64,000 nt of DNA from Haloarchaeobius amylolyticus (GTDB lineage Archaea; Halobacteriota; Halobacteria; Halobacteriales; Natrialbaceae): NCBI RefSeq assembly GCF_026616195.1, contig NZ_JANHDH010000001.1, positions 2,046,001-2,110,000 on the forward strand, given 5' to 3'. The notes beneath the pieces are model-generated. The model made no database searches. It was not told the origin of the DNA and worked only from the letters and a program-made list of their open reading frames with translations. Positions 41,436 to 48,281 of the stretch are shown piece by piece; within the stretch, counting starts at the first letter, position 1; each line of letters starts with the position of its first letter. A program made the position numbers and the translations under genes.

Positions 41436-42668
41436 TCAGAGCACGCCGAAGCCGAACGACGGGAAGCCGAGCACCGGCCCCCAGACGAAGTGCAGCGCAA
41501 CGCCGACCACGACCGCCGGGATGGTCGTGTAGATGCTGGCGACGACGGCGGCCTTCCTGTCGATGGCGAGCAGCGGGAACAGGGCGTCCCCGTCCTGGCT
41601 GATGGCGTTGGCCACCAGTGCCGAGAACGGGAGGCCGCCACTCGCGTACACCCCGGACAGCACGATCTGCGGGCCACAGCCCGGAATCAGGCCGACGGCG
41701 GCCCCGGCGACGGGAGCGATGACCCCGGCTGCCTGCGCGGCAGCGCCGATGTCGGCGCCCGTCACGAGCAGGAAGTACTCGTACAGCAGGTACGCACCGA
41801 TGACCCAGACCGTGACGAAACTGGTCTCCATCGCGGCGTGCTGGAGCGTCCCGTAGAGCGAGTCGAAGGACTCGCGGGCCTTCCCGACAGCTCCCTCGCC
41901 GATGTAGTGCCGACCCACGAAGTACAGGTAGAACGACAGCGTCGTCCCGAGCAGGCCGAACACGGTGAACAGGCCGTCGAAGCCCAGTCCCAGGGTCATC
42001 GACACGTCGGGTGCCCCACGCACCAGGTAGGTGACGCCGAGGCCGAGCGCGGCCATGGCGGCGACCCACCAGACGACGTGCGCCCCGTGCGAGAGCGGCG
42101 TCAGCACCGGTGAGTGCCGGTCTGGCCCGAGTTCGTGGGCGTGGGTCGGGCAGTCACAGCCGTACTCGTGTGCCGGGTTCGGCGTGACGGTGCTGCGCTG
42201 GCCGACCACCGCGGTCCCGCCGTCGGTGGTCGCGGGCTGGAGCCGGGCGACCGCGGCGTCGACCCGGTGAACCCCGAGCCCGACCCAGTCGACGAGGTAG
42301 CCGAAGACGACCGCGGTGACGAACGCGATACCGTAGGCGTACAGCGCGGCCTCCGGCGCGAGCACGAGGATGACGAACGCGGCGTCGCCTGCGGTCGCGA
42401 CGAGCGTGGCGACGACGGTCCCGAACGAGACGGTCCCGCGGACGTAGAGGGGCATCATGATGATGGCACCGCCACACCCCGGCGTCAGGCCCATGAGCGC
42501 CCCGAACAGCGGCTGGAAGCGCTCGTTCTCCTCGATCTTCGCGAGCAGCGCCCCGCCGGTCCGGTACTGGACGAGGCCGAACACGAGGATGGTGATGGCG
42601 ACGAAGGCCGACACCTGCACGTAGCCGTCGCGCAGGGAGGCGAGCGTCACGTCGAGGTACTCGTTCAC
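41436..42668 (-). CDS. Putative manganese/heavy-metal exporter (10TM, PF11449-type)
   Basis: A 410-residue membrane protein with about ten spans. It is built of two similar halves, each with a PGCG motif: GLTPGCGGAIIMMPLYVRG near residue 60 and GLIPGCGPQIVLSGVYASG near 345, both followed by a GDA[AL]F motif. This matches the PF11449 family, annotated as a putative manganese or heavy-metal exporter. The central loop is rich in Cys and His (EYGCDCPTHAHELGPDRH), a plausible metal site. Two near-palindromic operators lie between the TATA-like box and the start, so metal-dependent repression is likely. Substrate not proven. Confidence 0.75.
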   Translation of the reverse strand: MNEYLDVTLASLRDGYVQVSAFVAITILVFGLVQYRTGGALLAKIEENERFQPLFGALMGLTPGCGGAIIMMPLYVRGTVSFGTVVATLVATAGDAAFVILVLAPEAALYAYGIAFVTAVVFGYLVDWVGLGVHRVDAAVARLQPATTDGGTAVVGQRSTVTPNPAHEYGCDCPTHAHELGPDRHSPVLTPLSHGAHVVWWVAAMAALGLGVTYLVRGAPDVSMTLGLGFDGLFTVFGLLGTTLSFYLYFVGRHYIGEGAVGKARESFDSLYGTLQHAAMETSFVTVWVIGAYLLYEYFLLVTGADIGAAAQAAGVIAPVAGAAVGLIPGCGPQIVLSGVYASGGLPFSALVANAISQDGDALFPLLAIDRKAAVVASIYTTIPAVVVGVALHFVWGPVLGFPSFGFGVL

Positions 42669-42707
42669 GGGCGGCGCCTCTCGGTTTCGTCGGTGGAAGA
42701 ATCAGAT

Positions 42708-42749
42708 TTAGACATATCTAACAATTTTATTCGTATTAGATAGACCTAC
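42708..42749 (-). promoter_or_regulatory. Tandem DtxR/MntR-like operators and promoter of the metal exporter
   Basis: TTAGACATATCTAA at 42708-42721 is an inverted repeat (TTAGA-4-TCTAA). A second, weaker copy TTAGATAGACCTAC begins at 42736, 28 bases later. Between them ATAAAATTG on the minus strand (42722-42730) can be the TATA box. The form resembles DtxR/MntR/IdeR-type operators (TTAGG...CCTAA). A repressor or activator here would control the exporter. Confidence 0.5.
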
Positions 42750-42846
42750 GCTGAGAGAAGACTAATAGGTGTCGGCGTGAGGGTCGGTATCCCGGGACAG
42801 TCCAGGGAATCGCCGCCCCGTCCCCGTCGCTTCCGACGCCCCTGCC

Positions 42847-45464: not shown

Positions 45465-46436
45465 ATGGTTCCTGCAATCGAACTTTCCGGCGTAACGAAG
45501 CGTTTCGGCGACGAGGTCGTCGCGCTTCGTGACCTCGACCTCCGGGTCGAGGAGGGGGAGATATTCGGGTTCCTGGGGCCCAACGGCGCCGGGAAGTCGA
45601 CGACAATCGACATGCTGCTCGACTACATCCGGCCGACAGCAGGGACCGTGACGGTCCTCGGTATGGACGCGCAGGCCGACAGCCTGGCGGTCCGCCAGCG
45701 CGTCGGCGTGCTGCCCGACGCCTACCACGTCTACGACCGCCTCACCGGGCTGCAACACGTCCAGTTCGCGGTCGACTCGAAGCGCGCGAGCGACGACCCG
45801 ATGGCGCTCCTGGAGCGCGTCGGCATCGCCGAGGCGGCCGACCGGAAGGCCGGCGGCTACTCGAAGGGGATGAAACAGCGGCTCGTCCTCGCGATGGCAC
45901 TCGTGGGCGAACCGGACCTGCTCATCCTCGACGAGCCGACGACCGGGCTGGACCCCAACGGGGCCCGCGAGATGCGCGAGATCATCCGCGCCGAGGCGGC
46001 ACGAGGCGCCACGGTGTTCTTCTCGAGCCACATCCTCGAACAGGTCGAGGCGGTCTGTGACCGCGTCGCCATCCTCAACCGGGGCGAACTCGTCGCGGTC
46101 GACACCATCGAGAACCTCCGCGCCAGCATGGGCGGCGGGGCGACCCTCACCGTCACCGTCGACGGCGAGCCCACCGACGAGACGCTCGACACCGTCGAGC
46201 AGCTCCCCGGCGTGACCTCGGTCACCGCCGCGGGGTCGACCCTGACCGTGGCCTGTGACACCGGCGCGAAGACGGCCGTCCTCGACGCCATCGAGTCGAC
46301 CGGCCTCGTCGTCAGCGACTTCGCCACCGAGCAGACCTCGCTGGAGGACCTGTTCATGCAGTTCACCGCCGACGCGCCCGCGGCCGAGACCGAAGCCGAA
46401 CTTCGGACCGACGGCGACGGGGAGGTGCGCGCATGA
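45465..46436 (+). CDS. ABC-type ATPase, module 1 (CcmA/NosF-like)
   Basis: A 323-residue ATPase of the drug/copper-type export class. Walker A is GPNGAGKSTT (about residues 36-45), Q-loop region VGVLPDAYHVYDRLTG, signature YSKGMKQRLVLAMAL, Walker B LLILDEPTTGLD and switch histidine SSHILEQVEAVCDRV. A C-terminal domain (from about residue 220) with repeats of VTVDGE/VTAAGS follows. It overlaps its permease by four bases (ATGA). Nearly the same sequence recurs in modules 2 and 3, so it arose by tandem duplication. Export substrate unknown. Confidence 0.9.
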   Translation: MVPAIELSGVTKRFGDEVVALRDLDLRVEEGEIFGFLGPNGAGKSTTIDMLLDYIRPTAGTVTVLGMDAQADSLAVRQRVGVLPDAYHVYDRLTGLQHVQFAVDSKRASDDPMALLERVGIAEAADRKAGGYSKGMKQRLVLAMALVGEPDLLILDEPTTGLDPNGAREMREIIRAEAARGATVFFSSHILEQVEAVCDRVAILNRGELVAVDTIENLRASMGGGATLTVTVDGEPTDETLDTVEQLPGVTSVTAAGSTLTVACDTGAKTAVLDAIESTGLVVSDFATEQTSLEDLFMQFTADAPAAETEAELRTDGDGEVRA

Positions 46437-47281
46437 GCCTGACCGCCGTCGCGAAGAAGGACTTCACCGACGCCCGCCGGTCGCGGTCGCTGTGGCTGCT
46501 GTCGGCGCTGTTCGTCCTGTTCGCCGCCGGGATGGCGTGGATCTACACCGAGATCACCGCCACCGGTGGCGCGGGCGCGGACCCGGAACTCAGTGCCCTC
46601 GGGCTCTACGACTTCCTGGCGTCCTCGGCGACGCTGTTCATCAGCATCACGGCGCTCGTCATCGCCCACAAGGCCATCGCGGGCGAGCGTGATTCGGGCT
46701 CGATGAAACTGCTGCTCGGCCTGCCCCACTCGCGGGCCGACGTGCTGTTCGGGAAGGTCCTCGGCCGGGCCGTCACCCTCGCCCTGCCCATCGTCCTCGG
46801 GATGGTGGTCGCCCTGGGCGTCATCGTGGCGCTGTACGACTCGTACAACCTGGCCGAGTACGCCGTGTTCGTGAGCATCACGCTGGTGTTCGCGCTCGTC
46901 TACATCGGCCTCATGACGGCCATCTCGGCCAGCGTCTCGACGGCCGGCAAGGCCTCGGCGCTGGCGTTCGCCGTCTTCGCCGTGCTGGAACTCCTCTGGA
47001 ACGCGATCCCCATGGGCGTCCTGTACGTCGCGAACGGCTTCACCCTGCCCGGCTCCATCGCCGAGTACCCCGACTGGTACTTCGGCATCGTCAGCCTGAC
47101 GCCCAGTTCGGCCTACCAGTCCGCCCTCACGGCGGTCCTCGACGGCGCGAACACCGGTGCGACCCTCACGGGTCGTGACGCGTTCTACCTCGAGCCGTGG
47201 TTCGGCTTCGTCTGGCTGGCGTTCTGGCTGGCGGTCCCGCTCGGCATCGCGTACCTGCGATTCGACCGCGCGGACCTCTGA
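46433..47281 (+). CDS. ABC-2 type permease, module 1 (NosY-like)
   Basis: A 282-residue membrane protein with about six spans. The N terminus LTAVAKKDFTDARRSRSLWLLSALFVLF is the usual opening of ABC-2 permeases. The cytoplasmic loop IAGERDSGSMKLLLGLPHSRADVLFGKV is the coupling region and is almost repeated in module 2. A C-terminal RFDRADL motif ends the chain. It couples to the ATPase whose stop it overlaps. Likely exports a lipid, peptide or metal; not determinable. Confidence 0.85.
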   Translation: MSLTAVAKKDFTDARRSRSLWLLSALFVLFAAGMAWIYTEITATGGAGADPELSALGLYDFLASSATLFISITALVIAHKAIAGERDSGSMKLLLGLPHSRADVLFGKVLGRAVTLALPIVLGMVVALGVIVALYDSYNLAEYAVFVSITLVFALVYIGLMTAISASVSTAGKASALAFAVFAVLELLWNAIPMGVLYVANGFTLPGSIAEYPDWYFGIVSLTPSSAYQSALTAVLDGANTGATLTGRDAFYLEPWFGFVWLAFWLAVPLGIAYLRFDRADL

Positions 47282-47324
47282 GCCCGGACCTCTCTCGTCG
47301 CTGACTGTTCTGCGTTTTAGCCGA

Positions 47325-47334
47325 CTCTTATTAC
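47325..47334 (+). promoter_or_regulatory. TATA-like box of ABC module 2
   Basis: CTCTTATTAC lies 27-36 bases before the ATPase ATG at 47361, within the 79-base gap between modules 1 and 2. Confidence 0.5.
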
Positions 47335-47360
47335 ACACGTTTTCGTACCAGAACCTAGCC

Positions 47361-48281
47361 ATGGCCGCCATCGAACTCGACAGCGTCACCAGGCGCTTCG
47401 ACGAGGTGCTCGCGCTCGACTCGCTCTCCATGACCGTCGCGGACGGCGAGGTGTTCGGATTCCTGGGACCCAACGGGGCCGGGAAGTCGACCACCATCGA
47501 CATCCTCCTCGACTTCGTCCGCCCGACATCGGGCGAGTGTCGCGTGCTCGGTATCGACCCGCAACAGGACCCCGAGGCCGTCCGCCAGCGCGTCGGCGTC
47601 CTCCCCGACGGCTACCACGTGTACGACCGGCTCACGGGCCGGCAACACGTCCAGTTCGCGGTCGACTCGAAGGGTGCGAGCGACGACCCGACGAGCCTCC
47701 TCGACCGCGTCGGTATCGCCGACGCCGCCGACCGCAAGGCCGGCGAGTACTCGAAGGGGATGACCCAGCGACTCGTCCTCGCGATGGCCCTCGTCGGCGA
47801 ACCGGACCTGCTCGTCCTCGACGAGCCCACGACGGGACTTGACCCGAAGGGAGCCCGCGAGATGCGCGAGATAATCCGCGCCGAGGCCGACCGGGGCGCG
47901 ACCGTCTTCTTCTCGAGTCACATCTTAGAGCAGGTCGAGGCGGTCTGCGACCGCGTCGCCATCCTCCGGCAGGGGCAACTGGTCGCCGTCGACAGCATCG
48001 ACAACCTCCGCGAGGGCATGACCGGGACCGCCGAGACGCTGACCGTGACGACCGCCGAGCCGGTCGACGAGTCGGTCCAGGACGCGCTGCGGGACATCGA
48101 GGGCGTCGCCGCGGTCTCGGCCGCGGGGCGCGAACTCACCGTCTCGCTCTCGGCCAACGTGAAGATGGACGTGCTCGGGACGCTGGAGGAGTGGAACGTC
48201 GACGTGCAGGACTTCGCGACCGAGGAGACCTCGCTCGAGGAGCTGTTCGTGCGCTACACCGAGACGGAGGCCGACGCATGA
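47361..48281 (+). CDS. ABC-type ATPase, module 2 (CcmA/NosF-like)
   Basis: A 306-residue ATPase, closely similar to module 1: FGFLGPNGAGKSTTIDILLDF, VGVLPDGYHVYDRLTGRQHV, YSKGMTQRLVLAMAL, LLVLDEPTTGLDPKGARE and FFSSHILEQVEAVCDRV. The C-terminal regulatory part is more diverged (LTVTTAEPVDESVQD). Start was set at MAAIELDSVTRRF, with a TATA-like box at leaderless spacing. It overlaps the permease gene by four bases. Confidence 0.9.
   Translation: MAAIELDSVTRRFDEVLALDSLSMTVADGEVFGFLGPNGAGKSTTIDILLDFVRPTSGECRVLGIDPQQDPEAVRQRVGVLPDGYHVYDRLTGRQHVQFAVDSKGASDDPTSLLDRVGIADAADRKAGEYSKGMTQRLVLAMALVGEPDLLVLDEPTTGLDPKGAREMREIIRAEADRGATVFFSSHILEQVEAVCDRVAILRQGQLVAVDSIDNLREGMTGTAETLTVTTAEPVDESVQDALRDIEGVAAVSAAGRELTVSLSANVKMDVLGTLEEWNVDVQDFATEETSLEELFVRYTETEADA

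Follow-up and report, generated by a model that had tools for sequence, protein, structure and literature searches.

In Haloarchaeobius amylolyticus, the gene for a PF11449 (ArsP_2) transporter is preceded by a 14-bp palindrome, TTAGACATATCTAA, whose reading as a conserved operator of the DtxR/MntR type is, for a predicted site, well supported. The interpretation preferred here, with a probability of roughly 0.55, is that a manganese-loaded MntR-type DtxR protein represses this gene, and that PF11449 is more likely a permease for manganese uptake than an exporter of heavy metals. The window, that is, the whole 64,000-nt stretch of DNA that was analysed, has the following features in this region (the coordinate on contig C1 is the window position plus 2046000):

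41436-42668, minus strand: PF11449 (ArsP_2) transporter gene, 410 aa, GTG start, identified by profile match.
42708-42721, minus-strand reading TTAGATATGTCTAA: conserved 14-bp palindrome TTAGACATATCTAA, predicted operator for an MntR-type DtxR protein.
42725-42731, minus strand: AATAAAA, a TATA-like box that separates both copies of the palindrome and begins to end 4-10 nt upstream of the operator.
42736-42749, minus-strand reading GTAGGTCTATCTAA: weaker copy of the palindrome, TTAGATAGACCTAC, with two mismatches, non-conserved.

The transporter matches the PF11449 profile over its full length (profile positions 3-359 of 359, E 1.7e-116, 389.7 bits against a cut-off of 32.5), and it is the sole PF11449 protein found in this genome. 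Its relatives are named “putative manganese transporter” in RefSeq. The searched literature, at the level of titles and listings, yielded no account of the regulation of PF11449 (DUF2899) or of a shown function. Close by on the plus strand are two similar ABC ATPase ORFs (window positions 45465-46436 and 47157-48281), which have the look of a tandem duplication.

A single match to the TTAGN6CTAA frame of the palindrome is present in the 64-kb window, where 0.04 would be expected. Within the family, 62 of 125 genomes contain PF11449, with 66 matches in all, and the upstream set comprises 65 of these (30 loci, 34 fetched regions and the window). The one match outside the set, the 66th, is the latter half of a split gene. 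This gene (G072:C3:2427893-2429058) is broken into two matches, and its operator is intact. After four divergent paralogues (L088-L091) had been set aside, 61 upstream regions were scored. A site with a score of at least 10 of 11 is present within 400 nt in 60 of the 61 (shuffled sequences: mean 0.1, maximum 1), and within 110 nt in 57 (shuffle mean 0.04). The four divergent paralogues have TTAGG(G/T)C..CCTAA sites instead, which is another class of DtxR-like palindrome. Order-wide, a PF11449 match is found in 131 of 392 genomes, 83 of them outside the family, and 43 of the 48 upstream regions sampled from these 83 have the site (shuffle mean 0.16). A universal stress protein gene closely follows PF11449 at six loci from other families and from Halarchaeum (L158-L161, L163 and L247). 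Because it recurs before orthologous genes, the main palindrome is far beyond what chance would be expected to produce, and the palindromic operator that the initial annotation had placed here is confirmed as a conserved element. The same annotation had described a pair of palindromes. There is indeed a weaker copy 28 bases on, with AATAAAA between the two, but only the main copy is conserved and the pair is unsupported: the sister species G005 (L062) keeps the main site and not the weaker one. A model with two operators was rejected on this ground, and also because genome-wide counts that allow up to two mismatches do not exceed the control (55 for the subtype TTAGAYNNRTCTAA on the forward strand versus 73 for the reversed control, with no enrichment). 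The copy at 42736-42749 may be an accessory site or simply a TATA-like stretch.

Across the whole genome, the TTAGN6CTAA pattern has 28 sites versus 18 for the reversed control pattern, and TTAGGY..RCCTAA, a separate class, accounts for 15 of the 28. Exact matches to the subtype TTAGAYNNRTCTAA number two, the one upstream of PF11449 and one at C1:802919, and a further three sites, at C2:898667, C1:487220 and C1:660133, differ from it by one mismatch. The C1:802919 site is located 66 nt before the gene for the ZnuA-type binding protein of an ABC importer operon, the last gene of which encodes a DtxR protein. The C2:898667 site is located 26 nt before a second DtxR gene (C2:898693), which is followed by a GDT1 (PF01169) gene. 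The sites at C1:487220 and C1:660133 lie between or inside ORFs with no metal context, were rejected as operators and are taken as chance occurrences. A genome scan for the motif, which had been put forward as a check, thus returns two exact sites and one of three one-mismatch sites that mark the PF11449, ABC importer and DtxR genes. Among fetched genes for the ABC binding protein, 29 of 30 have the site within 130 nt. Paired TTAGG..CCTAA palindromes with 36-bp spacing are present at G000:C3:178040-178089, 181164-181213 and 513336-513385, and these probably represent another DtxR regulon.

The DtxR protein encoded at C2:898693 (L001) combines the DtxR domains PF01325 and PF02742 with a FeoA domain, and is matched at E<1e-75 in 123 of 125 family genomes. 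All 30 fetched orthologues have a site at their own gene (score at least 9, within 110 nt), 24-29 nt before the matched start. The NCBIfam MntR equivalog NF047407 is the best model for the protein at 227 bits, under the curated cut-off of 350, and the protein is not a member. Its closest solved relative is 5zr4, which carries the entry title “Metal-dependent transcriptional regulator”. Alignment to 5zr4 and to IdeR (1fx7) places aspartates at the positions of both M10 and C102 of IdeR. These two IdeR residues are metal ligands, and acidic residues in their place mark manganese sensors. The putative recognition helix contains VTSM both in this protein and in the DtxR protein linked to the ABC importer; in L002 and L004, the two smaller DtxR proteins encoded in this genome, a glutamate precedes the methionine. 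This difference agrees, in a suggestive way, with the existence of two classes of sites. PF11449 is present in 46 genomes that lack a close relative of the ABC importer (the importer list comprises 32 genomes with matches above 400 bits, and the PF11449 list includes G048, which has a divergent paralogue only, and G072), which makes the near-universal protein encoded at C2:898693 the likelier regulator of the PF11449 gene.

The conservation of the palindrome, together with the presence of the same site at the near-universal, MntR-like DtxR gene and at the ZnuA-type ABC importer, argues that an operator of the DtxR/MntR type covers the start region of PF11449, as had been proposed from the window alone. 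The same three lines of evidence point to metal dependence, with manganese the presumed metal rather than iron. It is unlikely that a regulator of this type senses a different metal, zinc or iron, to which the gene would then answer. The binding protein of the ABC importer matches zinc and manganese models alike, all below cut-off, and bacterial relatives of PF11449 have boxes of Fur, an iron sensor, both of which would suit such a reading. Against it stand the aspartates in place of M10 and C102, as expected of a manganese sensor if the ligand roles are as generally held, the separate genomic class to which the TTAGGY..RCCTAA sites belong, and the RefSeq name of the relatives.

The position of the site within the promoter bears on the direction of regulation. 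In an alignment anchored on the operator and built from 21 family sequences, selected so that a genus contributes one or a few, the elements CTATTTA and GCTAAA are found 23-29 and 8-13 nt upstream of it, respectively. The transcription start was placed from the spacing that TATA and start usually have in archaea, and on this basis the position of CTATTTA puts the operator over the predicted start. The CTATTTA element is not kept in the window's genus, where AATAAAA is found 4-10 nt before the operator, and the assignment of AATAAAA as TATA is uncertain; the operator is downstream of the TATA element whichever candidate is taken. In most family members, the PF11449 site would thus occupy a repressor position over the start. 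In most of the ABC importer promoters read, by eye, the site is upstream of BRE/TATA.

PF11449 genes have two promoter layouts: layout A, with the site over the start, is that of most family members, and layout B is like that of the ABC importer, with the site upstream of TATA. A tree of 39 PF11449 proteins places the ten with layout B in one clade with support of 100/100; among these ten, L036, L157 and L158 have weaker sites. At the midpoint root, this clade is adjoined by a layout-A gene of another family (L164), which is the only layout-A gene from outside the family included in the tree. In all 18 layout-B promoters examined (L203, L160, L184, L185, L186, L162, L166, L161, L200, L159, L163, L189, L196, L183, L157, L031, L035 and L036), a short ORF that is out of frame and not conserved in sequence begins at an ATG 68-78 nt past the operator start; in L189 this ORF has five codons only.

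Manganese export is the function for which GDT1 proteins are best known, and their genes have the same site. Upstream DNA was fetched for 19 GDT1 genes located elsewhere than behind mntR; 16 of the 19 regions contain the site at a score of at least 9, and several of these promoters, by eye, have it directly after a TATA-like stretch. The likely start codon, taken as the first plausible in-frame ATG, is 52-259 nt behind the site; a start 8-14 nt behind it was rejected, the ATG or GTG codons there being out of frame. In nine GDT1 promoters (L226-L229, L232-L235 and L243), an ATG or GTG in another frame lies 7-8 nt beyond the operator, long before the real start, and may open a short upstream ORF. 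In genome G119, GDT1 follows PF11449 directly on the same strand (L244 854..2959), with a weaker site (2208) between them. PF11449 is present in 37 of the 43 genomes with GDT1 (Fisher p 2e-9, a value that ignores ancestry). According to a passage in the review PMC7380456, mneA is induced by Mn; the review also states, citing Leyn and Rodionov 2015, that four halobacterial GDT1 genes are under manganese-dependent control, and names the ManS/ManR system, by which we suspect a DtxR regulator to be meant. No association was found between PF11449 and the ABC importer in the family genomes (PF11449 in 16 of 32 with the importer and 46 of 93 without, p = 1). Phyletic replacement was rejected as a test of direction, since PF11449 does not replace the ABC importer and NRAMP is too widespread (111/125). 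By eye, PF11449 is missing wherever a second ABC+DtxR type occurs (11/11 among the matches listed), an impression that is given no weight.

Bacterial relatives provide a further view of the regulation of this family. The gammaproteobacterial set consists of the best 80 of 548 confirmed PF11449 loci, ranked by likeness to a Photobacterium query, and 62 of these 80 best-matching loci have a Fur box (12 of 14 positions or better, within 250 nt; shuffles 0.53, maximum 2). Among the 62 Fur-box promoters, 27 contain a match to a simple -10 pattern, 24 of these at 6 nt, and the other 35 do not. In the 27, as in the haloarchaeal layout A, the placement would fit a repressor site lying over promoter elements. 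The Fur boxes on PF11449 genes of marine gammaproteobacteria point to repression by iron, as predicted from these motifs. Two other forms of control were considered and rejected. E. coli-type MntR boxes (AACATAGC) are found in 0 of the 80 bacterial upstream regions. The manganese riboswitch yybP-ykoY is found at the Rfam gathering score in 0 of 22 bacterial PF11449 loci (2 plasmid loci and 20 of the 80), and no Rfam family reaches the gathering score in the window.

The structure of the transporter has little to say on direction. A sequence search of the PF11449 protein against solved structures gave nothing at E<=1, and a Foldseek search of its structure model (mean pLDDT 76.7, pTM 0.78) against the PDB gave nothing at E<=0.001. 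Alignment of the model with VIA-align gave ArsB (10tp) at Z 12.0 with an rmsd of 5.0 over 269 residues, and NaS1, NaDC3, CNT and INDY at Z 10-11, values that helical models sometimes reach by chance (Z 10-12). The modelled likeness to ArsB and DASS/CNT is best taken as the common arrangement of secondary transporters and nothing more, and as these relatives include both importers and exporters, the fold does not decide the direction of transport.

The initial annotation had called the gene product a PF11449-type exporter. The family assignment is firmly upheld by the profile match (E 1.7e-116), but the exporter label, which rests on the family name in Pfam and NCBIfam, is doubtful in view of the repressor position of the site, the likeness of the layout-B clade to the ABC importer and the Fur boxes of the bacterial relatives. 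The layout shared with the ABC importer and the Fur boxes favour expression under metal shortage, and hence uptake, in so far as regulatory motifs are a guide to function. Several considerations speak against import. The GDT1 genes, whose products are best known for manganese export, have the same site, so that GDT1 would need to have a different role in this setting, or else the logic would be other than plain manganese repression. PF11449 also co-occurs with GDT1 and does not replace the ABC importer, and the modelled PF11449 fold is as close to that of the exporter ArsB as to those of importers.

If the GDT1 genes are taken at face value, the regulatory logic could be reversed: the metal-free regulator would repress the exporters PF11449 and GDT1 at their start and activate the ABC importer from upstream of TATA, with manganese releasing it. 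This scheme, which is quite unlikely, fits the downstream site at layout-A PF11449 and GDT1 genes together with the upstream site at the ABC importer, as well as the co-occurrence of GDT1 and PF11449; were it true, one palindrome would give opposite regulatory signs depending on its position in the promoter. It would, however, have the clade-B PF11449 genes activated like an importer, it runs against the Fur boxes on bacterial PF11449, and DtxR proteins bind DNA with metal. In addition, a passage of PMC3600143 reports that haloarchaeal SirR represses genes for Mn uptake in an Mn(II)-dependent manner. Similarly improbable is that PF11449 is an exporter activated from this site by manganese-loaded MntR, as in Bacillus subtilis, where MntR is described as an activator of its exporters. 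This would agree with how Pfam and NCBIfam name the family, but the activating sites of B. subtilis are upstream of the genes, not over the predicted start as here, and the mntR-like gene, with a similar placement of its site, is more likely autorepressed. That the palindrome is a chance occurrence, or has no relation to the PF11449 gene, has nothing in its favour beyond the AT-rich local sequence and is refuted by the site in 60 of 61 orthologous upstream regions.

Repression by manganese-loaded MntR, with PF11449 as an uptake permease, is thus the preferred reading, and in this model binding, metal identity, repression, the point where transcription starts and which way the metal is moved are all inferred. 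When manganese is sufficient, the metal-loaded MntR-type protein encoded at C2:898693 would bind the palindrome, and the bound repressor, downstream of TATA and over the predicted start, would keep transcription of PF11449 from starting. Under manganese scarcity the gene would be expressed, and its product, a secondary permease, would bring manganese into the cell.

It is already known that DtxR proteins act in manganese regulation and that archaea have DtxR regulons. The system proposed here shares with those of B. subtilis MntR and Halobacterium SirR a DtxR-family protein, a palindromic site, likely autoregulation and an ABC metal importer in the regulon; it differs in that the regulon adds PF11449 and GDT1, and in that the site occurs in two promoter layouts. 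The work of Leyn and Rodionov 2015, as described where it is cited, is alike in being a comparative prediction of DtxR sites in archaea. With the PF11449/ArsP_2/“putative manganese transporter” family, the protein shares the full-length match, the RefSeq name of its relatives and the ArsB/DASS-like arrangement, whereas its regulation in this genome suggests uptake.

These predictions define a concrete, testable manganese regulon for haloarchaea, and they call into question the exporter label of a transporter family that is spread across archaea and bacteria. The preferred view, drawn from regulatory sequence, is that PF11449 would be an unrecognised family of manganese importers common to haloarchaea and marine bacteria. 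The direction of transport would be informative either way, pointing to a new importer family or to a DtxR protein with unusual logic.
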